From Hymenobacter sp. BRD128 (GTDB lineage: Bacteria > Bacteroidota > Bacteroidia > Cytophagales > Hymenobacteraceae): a stretch of 64,000 nt of DNA. Below are positions 4,025-9,063 of this stretch, piece by piece. Within the stretch, counting starts at the first letter, position 1, and each line of letters starts with the position of its first letter. Below the pieces are notes generated by a model. The model had not been told where the DNA came from. It saw only the letters and a program-made list of their open reading frames with translations, and made no database searches. The position numbers and the translations under genes were made by a program. The stretch lies in assembly GCF_013256625.1 (NCBI RefSeq), contig NZ_CP053908.1:1612001-1676000 (forward strand), written 5' to 3'.

Positions 4025-4789
4025 TTAGTCAGCTAGGAGGAGCAGCGCGTTGATAAATGCTTCGTAACGCTCCCCTAGCGGCAGTTCCGCATTGGTGGTC
4101 AGCCGGCGGCGGGTGGTTTCCAGGACTTGCTGCGTAAGTGGGTTTGTCCCCGCTTTCTGGTAGTCTTCCCAGTATAAGCCCACGCCGCGCTTTTGCCAAG
4201 CGGGCAGGTCGTTGTAATTAATACCGTGGGCAAACAGCAGGTCGTGCTTGGCCGCAGTACGCAGCCCTTTTACCTGGCCCGTTGCCTCGCCCACCGAGCG
4301 GCCCTGCTTGCGCAGCAGCCAGTAACAGTGCGCATTAAGCGAGTTGCGACCGGCATCTTCCTGCCGCCATCGAAAATAATCGACCACGTCCTGGCGGCGG
4401 GGCAGCTGCGAGATACGGCAATCAAATACCCCCGGCGCCCCGAGCTGCAGCGAGAACCTAGCCGACGCCTCGCCCGCCAGCACGGACGTATATTTGCGCA
4501 GCTTGCGGCCAAAGGAATCTTCGGCCGGATGCAGCAGCAACGAGATTTCGTCGCTCTGCGTGTAGCCGTACACCAGTCGAAAACCGCAATCGAGCAGGTG
4601 GCGGGTGGTAGCCACCATGTAATCGCGCATCCGCTCATCGAAGGGTGCTTCGAAGGCGTGTACCTCCTTGGTCAGGCGCGTGAAGCCGCGCCCATCGAGC
4701 CGGGCTACCAGATAGAGGCCGGGCAGGGCACAGTGGTCGTGCGCCGTCTCGAAGATGCGCAGGCGAGCGTCAAGGTCGTCAAATTTCAT
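4025..4789 (-). CDS. Thg1-like tRNA(His) guanylyltransferase family protein (3'-5' polymerase)
   Basis: 254 aa. Family signs are ARLDGRGFTRLTK (N-terminal metal-binding Asp), YTQSDEISLL (second metal-binding Asp of the palm), and YFRWRQEDAGRNSLNAHCYWLL, matching the Thg1 WRQxDxxxN block. Eukaryotic Thg1 adds G-1 to tRNA-His; bacterial and archaeal relatives are template-dependent 3'-5' polymerases that can repair 5'-truncated tRNAs. Which role applies here is not visible. Its start overlaps the kinase gene stop by 11 nt, so the two are probably translationally coupled, and hisB follows by 30 bp. Its placement inside a histidine operon is notable, since both relate to tRNA-His. Family assignment confident, substrate inferred. 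Confidence 0.88.
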   Translation of the reverse strand: MKFDDLDARLRIFETAHDHCALPGLYLVARLDGRGFTRLTKEVHAFEAPFDERMRDYMVATTRHLLDCGFRLVYGYTQSDEISLLLHPAEDSFGRKLRKYTSVLAGEASARFSLQLGAPGVFDCRISQLPRRQDVVDYFRWRQEDAGRNSLNAHCYWLLRKQGRSVGEATGQVKGLRTAAKHDLLFAHGINYNDLPAWQKRGVGLYWEDYQKAGTNPLTQQVLETTRRRLTTNAELPLGERYEAFINALLLLAD

Positions 4790-5228
4790 CTTGCCAGTCA
4801 GTTATCGCAAATTCCTGATTGCCTTGCACACGCACAAAATAGAGCGTATCAAATCCTTCGGCGCGGGTGGGTAGCTCCAGCCGGTTGCGCGTGGCCCGAA
4901 TGCCCTTATCGGGTATCTGCCGCTCGCCGGGCCGTTGCTGGTTCCGCACCAGGGCTTCGGCGGCGATTGATTGAAAGAAATACCCAACCACTTCAAACCC
5001 GGCGGCGCGGGCGGGCGCGATATAACTCGCCCGCCCCGCCCGGGTGGGATTGGTATTATCCACCACGCACCGCATCTGCGTTTCCAGACACACCTGTAGC
5101 AAGCGCTGCTCCCGATGGCGCGTGCGCAGCAAATCGAGGCTGAGACGCACGTGAGAATGAAAGAAGCGCTGCTGGTAAAACGTAGATTTACCGGTAGCCT
5201 GAATGCCGCAGAAGAGTACGAGTTGCAT
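4779..5228 (-). CDS. P-loop kinase, polynucleotide-kinase-like (AAA_33 type)
   Basis: 149 aa from the ATG at 5228. A Walker A loop GIQATGKST lies at residues 7-15, a VVDNTNPTRAGR block near residue 80 corresponds to the D-N-T-N motif of T4 Pnk-like kinases, and arginine-rich lid segments follow. Such enzymes phosphorylate 5'-OH nucleic acid ends or small molecules. A TTG at 5240 overlaps the hisC stop and would add four residues; the ATG was preferred. It starts 8 bp after hisC and overlaps the Thg1-like gene by 11 nt. A 5'-end kinase followed by a 5'-end-extending polymerase suggests an RNA-end repair pair, which is inference. Zeta-toxin-like or small-molecule kinases are the alternatives. 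Confidence 0.75.
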   Translation of the reverse strand: MQLVLFCGIQATGKSTFYQQRFFHSHVRLSLDLLRTRHREQRLLQVCLETQMRCVVDNTNPTRAGRASYIAPARAAGFEVVGYFFQSIAAEALVRNQQRPGERQIPDKGIRATRNRLELPTRAEGFDTLYFVRVQGNQEFAITDWQDEI

Positions 5229-5236
5229 AGATTCAC

Positions 5237-6301
5237 TCAACTAGCCACCTCAAATTCCTCCAGCGCCGCCAGCAGCTTCTCGTTCTCCTCGGGCGAGCCC
5301 ACCGTGAGGCGCAGCGTGCCCGCGCAGCCGGGCTGGGTGGTGCGGTTGCGCACCACAATGCCGCGGCCCAGCAGATAATCGTACACGGCCGTGGCATCGG
5401 GGCGGAAGCGCACGAGCAAAAAATTGGCATCGGAGGGGAAAACCTCGGCTACGATGGGCAGCGCGGGCAGGCGCGCGGCCAGCCACTCGCGGCCGGCCAG
5501 CAGCTGCCCGCGCAAGCTCTCGAAGTGCGGCGCCGCCCCTAGCGCCGCCAGCGCGTGCTGCTGGGTGGCTTCGGAGATGTTGTAGGGCGGCTTAATTTTA
5601 TTGAGGTAGCCGATGATTGCGGGCGAGGCGAAGGCCATGCCCAGGCGCAGGCCGGCTAGCCCCCAGGCCTTGGAAAAGGTCTGCAGCACCACCAGGTTCG
5701 GGAATTCGGCCAGGCGCGTCGTCCAGCTGGGGGCGGCGGCGAAGTCGGCGTAGGCCTCATCGACCACCACCAGGCCGGGGAAGCCGCGCAGAATTTCCTC
5801 AATAGCTTCGGCGTGCAGCAGATTGCCGGTGGGATTATTGGGCGAGCACAGGAACACCAGCTTGGCTTGCGAGGCCAGCACACCGGCCACGATTGCGGGC
5901 GAGAGCTGGAAATCGGCCGTGAGCGGCAGGCGCTCGATGCGCACGTCGTTGAGGTTGGCGGCCACCTCGTACATGCCGTAGGTGGGCGGCAGCAGCAACA
6001 TGCTGTCTTGGCCGCCCGGCGTGCAGGTGAGGCGCACCAGCAGGTCGATGGCCTCGTCGGAGCCGTTGCCCAGGAAAATCTGGCTCGGGTCCACGCCTTT
6101 CAGTCGGGCTAGCTCGGCTTTTACGGCGCGCTGCTGCGGGTCGGGGTAGCGGTTGAACCGCGCCGGGCCGGTGCTGCCCAGGCTGTTCTCGTTGGCGTCG
6201 AGCATCACCTGGGCATCGCCCTGAAACTCGTCGCGGGCCGATGAGTACGGCTTCATGGCCCGGATATTGGGGCGAATGAGGGATTCTAAATCGAAAGACA
6301 T
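5237..6301 (-). CDS. hisC: Histidinol-phosphate aminotransferase HisC
   Basis: PLP-dependent fold-type I aminotransferase converting imidazole acetol phosphate to histidinol phosphate; 354 aa from the ATG at 6301 (MSFDLESLIRPN). Seen are LDANENS near the N-terminus, the NPTGN turn, VVDEAYADF, and TFSKAWGLAGLRLG with the Schiff-base Lys. An in-frame ATG at 6319 lies on the edge of a palindromic element; longer starts would read through the element, so 6301 was chosen. Downstream come the kinase/Thg1-like pair, upstream hisD. Very secure. Confidence 0.95.
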   Translation of the reverse strand: MSFDLESLIRPNIRAMKPYSSARDEFQGDAQVMLDANENSLGSTGPARFNRYPDPQQRAVKAELARLKGVDPSQIFLGNGSDEAIDLLVRLTCTPGGQDSMLLLPPTYGMYEVAANLNDVRIERLPLTADFQLSPAIVAGVLASQAKLVFLCSPNNPTGNLLHAEAIEEILRGFPGLVVVDEAYADFAAAPSWTTRLAEFPNLVVLQTFSKAWGLAGLRLGMAFASPAIIGYLNKIKPPYNISEATQQHALAALGAAPHFESLRGQLLAGREWLAARLPALPIVAEVFPSDANFLLVRFRPDATAVYDYLLGRGIVVRNRTTQPGCAGTLRLTVGSPEENEKLLAALEEFEVAS

Positions 6302-7844: not shown

Positions 7845-8696
7845 CTACCCGACGCGCTTCTCAATGGGCAGCACCAGGATGCCCTCGGCCCCGATGGCCT
7901 GCAGCTCGCCGGCGATGTGCCAGAACTTGTCTTCCTCCACCACCGACTGCACCGATACCCAGCCGTCTTCGGCCAGGGGCGTGACGGTGGGCGACTTGAT
8001 GCCCGGCAGCAGGGCCTTTACGGCATCGAGGGCGGCTAGCGGGGCGTTGAGCACGATGTACTTCGAGCGCTGGGCCCGGCGCACGGCCTGCATCCGGAAC
8101 CGCAGCTGGTCGAGCAGCTCCTGCTTGTCGGGGCTGAGGTTGGGAGCGGCGATGAGCACGGCCTCCGAGCGAAAGATGGTTTCGACTTCGCGCAGGCCGT
8201 TGCCGAGCAGGGTCGAGCCGCTGCTCACGATGTCGCAGATGGCCTCGGCCAGCCCGATGCTGGGCGCAATCTCGACCGAGCCCGAAATGGTGTGCAGGTG
8301 GGCCCGCACGCCCTGGCCGGCCAGGTAGTCGCCGAGCAGCTTGGGGTACGACGTGGCAATGCTTTTGCCCTGCAAGTCGGCCACCGAATTGTACTCGGCG
8401 CCGCGCGGCACGGCCAGACTCAGGCGGCACTTGCTGAAGCCCAGGGGTTCGACTTCGAGGGCCGCGCAGCCGGCTTCGACCAGCACGTTCTGGCCCACGA
8501 TGCCGAGGTCGGCCACGCCGTCCTGCACGTAGCCGGGAATATCGTCGTCGCGCAGGTAGAGGATTTCCAGCGGAAAGTTGCTGGCCTCGACCTTGAGCTT
8601 ATAGGACGACGAAACGAAGCTGATGCCGCACTCGCGGATGAGCTGAAGGGAGTCCTCCGAGAGGCGGCCGGACTTTTGAATGGCTAAACGCAGCAT
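7845..8696 (-). CDS. hisG: ATP phosphoribosyltransferase HisG (long form)
   Basis: Catalyses the first committed step, joining ATP and PRPP. 283 aa from the ATG at 8696 (MLRLAIQKSGRLSEDS). The length shows the long form, with a C-terminal ACT-like regulatory domain (about residues 205-283) that is feedback-inhibited by histidine and needs no HisZ. The SGSTLLGNGLREV PRPP loop is visible near residue 170. A longer in-frame start at 8792 would read through the leader hairpins and lacks family similarity. First structural gene of the operon, 198 nt downstream of the leader-peptide stop. Confidence 0.95.
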   Translation of the reverse strand: MLRLAIQKSGRLSEDSLQLIRECGISFVSSSYKLKVEASNFPLEILYLRDDDIPGYVQDGVADLGIVGQNVLVEAGCAALEVEPLGFSKCRLSLAVPRGAEYNSVADLQGKSIATSYPKLLGDYLAGQGVRAHLHTISGSVEIAPSIGLAEAICDIVSSGSTLLGNGLREVETIFRSEAVLIAAPNLSPDKQELLDQLRFRMQAVRRAQRSKYIVLNAPLAALDAVKALLPGIKSPTVTPLAEDGWVSVQSVVEEDKFWHIAGELQAIGAEGILVLPIEKRVG

Positions 8697-8895
8697 GAGA
8701 AAGAAAGCGCCGACGACCCGGGGCGGGCCAGCGGCCAGATTGAACGGCGTTCCGGCGGCTAGGCCCCGGAAACGCCTTCGTATAATACCCAAACGAGGAA
8801 AAAGTTATTTCCCGGCCCAGTGGCGGGGCGGCGGTGGAGACGCGAGCGGCTGGCAAAGGCTACAGGGTAGCGGCCAGCCCGGTTGCCCGGTCTCC
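8697..8895 (-). promoter_or_regulatory. his operon leader with stable hairpins (putative attenuator)
   Basis: The untranslated stretch between the leader peptide and hisG. Immediately after, and overlapping, the leader stop is a three-tier hairpin: GGAGAC (8890-8895) with GTCTCC (8836-8841), GGCTGGC (8873-8879) with GCCAGCC (8848-8854), and GCTAC with GTAGC at the tip. A second stem pairs 8766-8776 with 8746-8755. A T-run (8799-8803) exists, but I could not draw a clean strong stem directly before it, so terminator assignment is uncertain. Position and structure fit ribosome-dependent attenuation. Confidence 0.6.
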
Positions 8896-9026
8896 TACAG
8901 ATGGTGGTGATGCTGCTGCGGCGCGGCGGCCAACGGCTGCGTAGCCTGCCAGGCCGCCGCCAGCCCCGAAAAGGGGGCCGCAAGCGCGGGGCTGAAGGCA
9001 GACGTGAGGCAGTAGGCGGGGGTCAT
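8895..9026 (-). CDS. hisL: his operon leader peptide (His4 near C-terminus)
   Basis: A 43-codon ORF from the ATG at 9026 to the TAG at 8895. It begins MTPAYCLTSAF and ends APQQHHHHL, with codons CAT CAC CAC CAT consecutively at residues 39-42. The ATG lies only a few bases after the predicted transcription start of a good Bacteroidota promoter, and hairpins start at the stop codon. In proteobacterial his operons, a His-rich leader peptide senses charged tRNA-His through ribosome stalling; the arrangement here is analogous. The peptide is not related to enterobacterial HisL. The symbol reflects position and composition, not homology. Too short for standard gene callers. Confidence 0.72.
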   Translation of the reverse strand: MTPAYCLTSAFSPALAAPFSGLAAAWQATQPLAAAPQQHHHHL

Positions 9027-9033
9027 CGTGGGG

Positions 9034-9063
9034 CAAAGGTAGGCAGCGGGACCGAAATCCAAA
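9034..9063 (-). promoter_or_regulatory. Bacteroidota sigma-ABfr-type promoter for the his operon
   Basis: On the minus strand a -33 TTTG (9060-9063) is followed, after 18 nt, by a perfect TAnnTTTG -7 box, TACCTTTG (9034-9041). The start site would fall about 7 nt downstream, almost at the leader ATG (9026). Confidence 0.7.

Follow-up and report, generated by a model that had tools for sequence, protein, structure and literature searches.

A probable histidine-sensing leader peptide attenuator upstream of hisG in Hymenobacter, and related leaders across the Bacteroidota

Introduction

The his leader of Enterobacteria (Rfam RF00514) consists of a short ORF with a run of histidine codons ahead of hisG, followed by hairpins, and it operates through ribosome stalling. 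The locus described here lies on the minus strand of a 64-kb window of Hymenobacter DNA (the window being the whole stretch analyzed), and it likewise pairs a short ORF and a histidine run before hisG with a hairpin after the run. Unlike the enterobacterial leader, it carries no canonical terminator, its histidine codons sit at the extreme end of the ORF, and the leader stop codon forms the foot of the hairpin.

According to an excerpt of a 2010 paper, leader peptide systems had to its authors' knowledge been shown only in Proteobacteria and Actinobacteria, besides ermC, and the paper itself contributed a Firmicutes case (PMC2965389). Candidate histidine leader-peptide attenuators from the Firmicutes, in the Bacillus cereus group, Eubacteriales, and Erysipelotrichales, resemble the present locus, in the excerpted part of their description, in having three to five consecutive histidine codons just upstream of the candidate attenuator structure (PMC9413887); they belong to another phylum, however, and terminator and antiterminator hairpins are described for them. 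Closer in lineage, a transcriptome study of Flavobacterium psychrophilum reports, in the part available, a structured 5′ element before hisG in Flavobacteriaceae, without an Rfam match (PMC9723704); as far as that part describes it, the Hymenobacter leader differs in lacking its terminator and in having other hairpins. Excerpts of two further papers mention leader-like small ORFs in Bacteroides (PMC7366714) and list Bacteroid-trp, a Bacteroidetes motif (PMC2864571). Among the matches listed by a literature search that mostly covered papers outside subscription, none dealt with a Hymenobacteraceae his leader.

Results

The leader and its operon

A preliminary description of this window had pointed to a promoter of the form TTTG-18 nt-TACCTTTG, a 43-codon ORF with four histidine codons, and a hairpin at 8836-8895 that starts at the stop codon. 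Each of these is present on the minus strand at exactly the coordinates it gave (Table 1). TTTG and TAnnTTTG are the consensus elements of Bacteroidetes promoters, and because the -7 element lies so close to the leader ATG, the transcript likely has a very short 5′ untranslated part or none. The ORF ends in QQHHHHL, the leucine codon being followed by TAG at 8897-8895 (-), and the last base of this stop codon is also the first paired base of the hairpin, here called S. From this foot at 8895, 198 nt separate S from hisG; beyond hisC the operon continues with more genes, to about 423 (-). The 339-nt leader as a whole folds better than shuffled sequence (z -2.09; 3 of 100 shuffles equally good).

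No Rfam family reached its gathering score anywhere in the window, including RF00514 His_leader and the T-box riboswitch. Against the leader region, His_leader gave no match up to E 10, and the four matches that did appear were at chance level and to unrelated families. Among 18 loci scanned, two Bacteroidota relatives gave sub-threshold His_leader matches (36 bits in L141 and 33.4 bits in L142, against a cut-off of 49). At the second of these loci, a sub-threshold match to the Rfam Phe_leader (L142:214-302; 37 bits, cut-off 55) also appeared upstream of the his leader, at a distance of about 440 nt.

Table 1. Positions of the leader elements and adjoining genes within the window
Feature	Position	Strand	Basis or remark
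-33 promoter element TTTG	9060..9063	(-)	sequence; 18-nt spacer to -7 element
-7 promoter element TACCTTTG	9034..9041	(-)	7 nt upstream of leader ATG
Leader peptide ORF, 43 codons, MTPAYCLTSAFSPALAAPFSGLAAAWQATQPLAAAPQQHHHHL	8895..9026	(-)	ATG 9026; His-rich C-terminus in 118/119 relatives
Four candidate regulatory His codons	8901..8912	(-)	sole four-His-codon run in six frames of the 64-kb window
Hairpin S	8836..8895	(-)	fold and alignments of types A and C; 60 nt
Hairpin T (CCCcGCC..GGCcGGG), weak terminator candidate	8811..8828	(-)	81% of cells paired
U run and conserved TCGTTTGGGT box	8787..8803	(-)	alignments
Hairpin M (GGCGTTTCCGG..CCGGAACGCC)	8746..8776	(-)	both-side-changed cells at several pairs, 11 close relatives
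Hairpin H2, second terminator candidate	8709..8735	(-)	U-rich GCTTTCTTTCTC after it
hisG, first gene of his operon	7845..8696	(-)	PF01634, E 5e-51; ATG at 8696
hisD	7723-6413	(-)	his operon
hisC	6403-5237	(-)	his operon
Thg1-like gene and AAA_33 kinase gene	4025-4789 and 4779-5240	(-)	profile matches

Conservation and leader types in the genus

Of 120 genomes of the genus, 119 yielded at least a partial hisG. Its upstream regions, drawn from 30 loci, 49 further Hymenobacter-type loci (L031-L079), and 53 regions, came to 119 distinct sequences once identical regions had been merged and one locus that was too short (L011) had been dropped. In each region, the best ORF with its end 90-320 nt upstream of hisG was picked, and it was counted as a leader if its last 14 residues included at least three histidines. 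By this rule, 118 of the 119 regions contain a leader; among controls, the same rule selects an ORF in 2 of 119 cases for reverse complements, in 3 of 66 for regions 560 nt farther upstream, and in 25 of 595 for shuffles. The histidine codons of the leader tails are divided between CAT (368) and CAC (243). The sole region lacking a leader (L204) comes from a genome in about 450 contigs (G018), in which an S-type motif is located at one end of a different contig, and its missing leader may be a matter of assembly. In two other genomes, hisG is recovered as three overlapping pieces each, behind histidine-rich leaders (L222 and L223), suggesting frameshifts or sequencing errors.

A TAnnTTTG box precedes 115 of the 118 leaders, compared with 35 of 590 shuffled regions, and lies 6-8 nt from the ATG in 49 leaders and 16-25 nt from it in 66. 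An upstream TTG or TTTG at an allowed spacing accompanies the box in 45 of the 115 and is not found in the other 70.

All but one of the 119 regions can be assigned to four types, which we defined by the tail that follows the histidine run. The window belongs to type A (n = 20), with tails HHHHL* or ..HR*; type B (n = 65) ends in ..HHSSF* or ..HHSS*; type C (n = 29), found in a sister lineage, ends in HHHHLWEAGLCAGC and variants; and type D (n = 4) ends in HHHHHSSPGEE and similar tails. The outer stem of S is common to types A and C. In type C, TGG replaces the TAG of type A, so that the ORF stays open across the 5′ arm of S; most sequences have their stop codon within the inner hairpin, in its loop.

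It is conceivable that this ORF encodes a histidine-rich small protein with a function of its own, such as metal binding, and is not a regulator at all; the histidine-rich C-terminus is, after all, the conserved part of the ORF. But the N-terminal part varies by type, the tails beyond the histidine run differ among types A-D, and the ORF is located upstream of hisG, where a conserved RNA hairpin lies at its stop codon. We therefore consider such a protein very improbable.

Hairpin S

The outer stem of S pairs GGAGACCGGGC (8895-8885) with GCTCG-C-GTCTCC (8847-8836) and encloses the inner stems. The minimum free energy of the hairpin region is -49.6 kcal/mol for 121 nt, compared with -41.1 (sd 3.5) for shuffles (z -2.45; 3 of 200 equally good). 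In alignments of types A and C that were made from sequence, without fitting to structure, the outer stem is paired in 176 of 176 cells in type A (16 of the 20 sequences) and in 280 of 280 cells in type C (28 of the 29 sequences). Over the whole structures, 94.7% of cells in type A and 98.5% in type C are paired, falling to 33-50% when the partners are slid by 1-3 columns.

Covariation within the types is limited. In type C, S contains no both-side changes, and partner shuffles equal the observed alignment on every measure; in type A, 16 to 37 of 500 shuffles match the observed covariation measures, with one further measure matched by 174 of 500. The two types were also compared with each other. 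Since a joint alignment misplaced the 5′ arms, the arms of S were anchored by letter patterns in 48 of the 49 sequences (L181, whose arms were unmatched, was dropped). All 480 cells are then paired largely by construction, only the 96 of the third and fifth pairs having been able to fail, and because the anchors fix most letters this comparison was used for compensation alone. The fifth pair is A-U in 14 sequences, G-C in 20, and G-U in 14; the third includes one G-C alongside A-U and G-U. S is thus both placed so that the position of a ribosome can decide its formation and compensated at its fifth pair.

The core pattern of S occurs exactly once per genome in 40 of the 120 genus genomes, whereas a reversed control pattern gave two matches in total. 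By coordinates, it lies directly before a hisG match in 39 of these 40, the exception being the fragmented genome already mentioned. S was not present in leaders of types B or D, or in L181. The preliminary description had proposed conservation of the histidine codons and the stems in relatives as a check on its reading; both are kept in the genus, with stem S confined to types A and C, and the leader itself extends through much of the phylum, as described below.

A proposed mechanism

The locus has the form expected of an attenuator leader, in that the biosynthetic operon is preceded by a short, presumably translated ORF in which codons for the operon's end product stand in a row. The promoter would yield a transcript whose 5′ end nearly coincides with the leader ATG. 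Under a shortage of charged tRNA-His, a ribosome would stall on the four histidine codons, S would fold just downstream of it, and transcription would probably continue into hisG. With ample histidine, the ribosome would reach the stop codon at the foot of S and cover the 5′ arm, and S would not form; the C-rich 3′ arm, thereby freed, may lead to an early end of transcription at a weak hairpin or U-rich site, or via Rho. We propose, then, that S is the antiterminator (2:3), blocked by a ribosome at the stop codon, and that expression of the his operon would respond to charged tRNA.

Termination before hisG

Terminators were scored as a hairpin plus a U-tract, after the published d'Aubenton-Carafa form, with the cut set at zero; hairpins of up to 45 nt were considered, and in the Pontibacter group only the last 120 nt. 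No canonical terminator was found in the window leader (best score -20), in agreement with the preliminary description, which could not name an unambiguous one. For that reason, "complete" in the title that it nonetheless carried, "Complete his attenuator," is an overstatement: before hisG, the window offers T and H2 only, both of them weak. Scores above the cut were obtained in 2 of 20 type A leaders (9 of 80 shuffles), with the window among the 18 below, in 2 of 65 of type B (2 of 260), in 6 of 29 of type C (14 of 116), and in none of the four of type D (0 of 16). None of 31 Pontibacter, Rufibacter, and Adhaeribacter regions scored above the cut (0 of 124 shuffles), and again none did so when this group was rescored with 170 nt and hairpins of up to 70 nt.

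This scarcity leaves several ways in which transcription might be stopped. Median scores exceed those of shuffles in type A (-16.4 vs. -20), type B (-30.5 vs. -42.3), type C (-17.5 vs. -29), and the Pontibacter group (-38 vs. -70), and there is therefore room for weak terminators in each of these groups. A consensus terminator scan over 2.5 kb around the leader returned three sites, not above shuffle level. Among the 36 gene ends that simple ORF rules define in the window, 3 have a terminator score above zero (4 of 180 shuffles), and the genome may thus seldom use canonical terminators at all. Because they are rare at its gene ends too, their absence from the leader is not diagnostic.

Weak intrinsic terminators, either T with a run of five U or H2 with its U-rich tail, could accordingly suffice if the polymerase tolerates imperfect U-tracts. 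T, M, and H2 are conserved between S and hisG, with some both-side-changed cells. In the window, 12 nt separate the end of H2 from the hisG ATG, and this distance is 11-13 nt in 12 of the 20 type A leaders; in L014 and L016, the score of H2 exceeds the cut. The U run at 8803-8799 (-) lies 7 nt past the T stem. Against this reading, the 18 type A leaders below the cut, the window included, leave the type roughly at shuffle level, and T forms in several type A sequences whether or not S does. We regard weak termination as a serious candidate, if one falling somewhat short of an even chance.

A second possibility is that attenuation depends on Rho: translation to the stop codon would open S, and Rho would bind the exposed C-rich, G-poor strand, with no intrinsic terminator involved. 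Canonical terminators are few in Hymenobacteraceae leaders, and yet the leader is retained; in type A, C exceeds G in the 3′ arm of S and its flank more than in most other stretches of the leader (mean skew 0.26, median rank 0.09), and 18 of the 30 bases at 8850-8821 (-) are C. The skew is weaker in type C (0.14, rank 0.215), however, and type C has a 3:4 hairpin with a U-rich tail. We regard Rho dependence as a candidate mechanism, but a rather unlikely one.

The preliminary description had also allowed for a translational stop. In such a model, the leader switch would hide or expose the hisG start. H2 does lie close to the start codon, but the predicted openness of that start is nearly equal in both states: between S (or its counterpart) free and blocked, the mean difference is -0.03 in types A and B, -0.04 in type C, and -0.06 in type D. 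This option thus finds no support in the folding, and we consider it improbable.

A long-range helix between a GTTTGGG box and the hisG start was not used as evidence; it is nearly invariant and includes G-U pairs and a mismatch.

Exchange between alternative structures

If S is an antiterminator, its 3′ arm might be expected to pair elsewhere once S is blocked. When the 5′ arm was removed, the outer 3′ arm paired further downstream in the minimum free energy fold of 24 of 28 type C sequences (L181 could not be anchored) and in 13 of 20 of type A, with varied partners; both counts stand without a shuffle control. In type C, a 3:4 hairpin exclusive with S is paired in 83% of cells and is followed by U-rich DNA among the sequences listed. 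It contains 10 both-side-changed cells compared with 4.4 in shuffles (reached by 0 of 500), and its covariation score is likewise higher (0 of 500), while the number of pairs with a both-side change (254 of 500) and of further pair types (216 of 500) is not above shuffles.

In type A, including the window, folding gave no consistent partner for the segment freed by blocking S. Tests of the S 3′ arm for complementarity elsewhere in the leader gave p values of 0.02-0.76, with p<=0.05 in 2 of 20 leaders (L003 and L004, which are close to each other). The folding check that the preliminary description recommended, a search for a terminator/antiterminator pair, thus returned no clean exchange in the window's own sequence. 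The stalling mechanism that it inferred draws its support from homology, through the pairs found in other Bacteroidota and the covarying exclusive hairpin of type C, and not through an exchange in the window itself.

In two Adhaeribacter leaders (L085 and L100), a classical exchange can be seen by eye, GGGGAATAAT or GAGGAATAAT at the stop codon being complementary to a later ATTATTCCTC that is followed by T-rich DNA. These hairpins have long loops and score -10 and -56, below the cut.

Distribution across the Bacteroidota

A recognizable hisG is present in at least 252 of 296 genomes of the phylum. From these, 60 upstream regions were hand-picked for spread, with close hisG relatives over-represented, and 47 of the 60 contain a histidine-rich leader; the control counts were 9 of 60 for reverse complements and 6 of 60 for regions taken 400 nt farther upstream. 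Two of the 13 misses (L129 and L163) have histidine clusters farther from the end of the ORF, with a terminator present. In Pontibacter, Rufibacter, and Adhaeribacter, the leader was found at 31 of 31 loci (8 of 31 reverse complements).

Terminators above the cut, few in Hymenobacteraceae, occur in 35 of the 60 phylum regions (1 of 240 shuffles), including 33 of the 47 with a leader. In the 35, the segment right after the histidine codons is complementary to the 5′ arm of the terminator (p<=0.05 in 23; mean z -2.3 vs. shuffles). On the strength of this predicted pairing, the segment is a textbook antiterminator, its sequence changing between relatives. The Flavobacteriales-like regions sampled combine leader, antiterminator, and terminator.

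A second motif at the stop codon

Type B leaders and those of Pontibacter and Rufibacter carry a different element at the same place. Here, the leader stop codon lies in the loop of a near-invariant hairpin, ATTCCTC..GAGGAA, followed after 8-10 nt, a near-fixed distance, by an unpaired ATATNG. One alignment (A3) covers 32 of the 65 sequences of type B and shows no variation in TTCCTC, GAGGAA, or CATAT; its consensus fold leaves CATAT unpaired. TATAT replaces CATAT at some loci of the Pontibacter group. The exact pattern occurs at one site per genome in 70 of 120 family genomes, from 3 of 6 genera, and a control pattern matches none; the 22 matches in the genus Hymenobacter were located before hisG by coordinates. 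The motif was also observed upstream of hisG at individual type B, Pontibacter, and Rufibacter loci, L021, L030, L080, and L108 among them. From its geometry, we would guess that ATATNG is a polymerase pause site. A cloverleaf-like fold of type B, drawn by eye, was set aside, as the consensus fold retains three hairpins only.

The motif was not found in the window's genome; in that lineage, stem S occupies the place of the ATTCCTC hairpin. Because the purine and pyrimidine arms of S and of ATTCCTC/GAGGAAT are opposite, we do not propose a stepwise evolution of one hairpin into the other. In a separate family of the same order (f2; L113, L114, and L116), the ATTCCTC hairpin is followed by a shared ACACACCCA..CCGGTGA..GGATT..TTCACC, without a T-rich terminator.

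Discussion

The conservation of the leader, of the S stem, and of the terminators and antiterminators elsewhere in the phylum together provide good support for a stalling attenuator read through histidine codons. The underlying observation is real, and its assignment to the attenuator class is very likely right, as a lineage-specific form of a well-known type of switch. More specifically, and as far as comparative sequence analysis can carry the argument, the window element is probably a ribosome-mediated leader of the his operon that senses histidyl-tRNA. For the window itself, reading the ORF as a regulator accounts for what would otherwise resemble noise.

Leader-peptide control of histidine synthesis is thereby extended over much of the phylum Bacteroidota. 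It may be, though we hold this only as a doubtful suggestion, that the Hymenobacteraceae his leader kept its stalling peptide and had its intrinsic terminator swapped for another mechanism of stopping or pausing. The leaders in any case form a natural series, constant in the sensing part and variable in the stop signal, in which it can be asked how attenuators change their output. Shine-Dalgarno sites are rarely used in these bacteria, and the same series also bears on the coupling of transcription and translation under that condition.

The operon itself holds a further feature of possible relevance. Between hisC and hisB lie a Thg1-like gene, of the tRNA-His guanylyltransferase family (PF04446, E 2.6e-28), and an AAA_33 kinase gene. 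A tRNA-His enzyme family beneath a leader that would itself respond to charged tRNA-His makes a suggestive combination. Thg1 is present in 17 of 61 genus genomes, and in 13 of these 17 it lies, by coordinates, on the same strand as hisG and no more than about 5 kb downstream of it.
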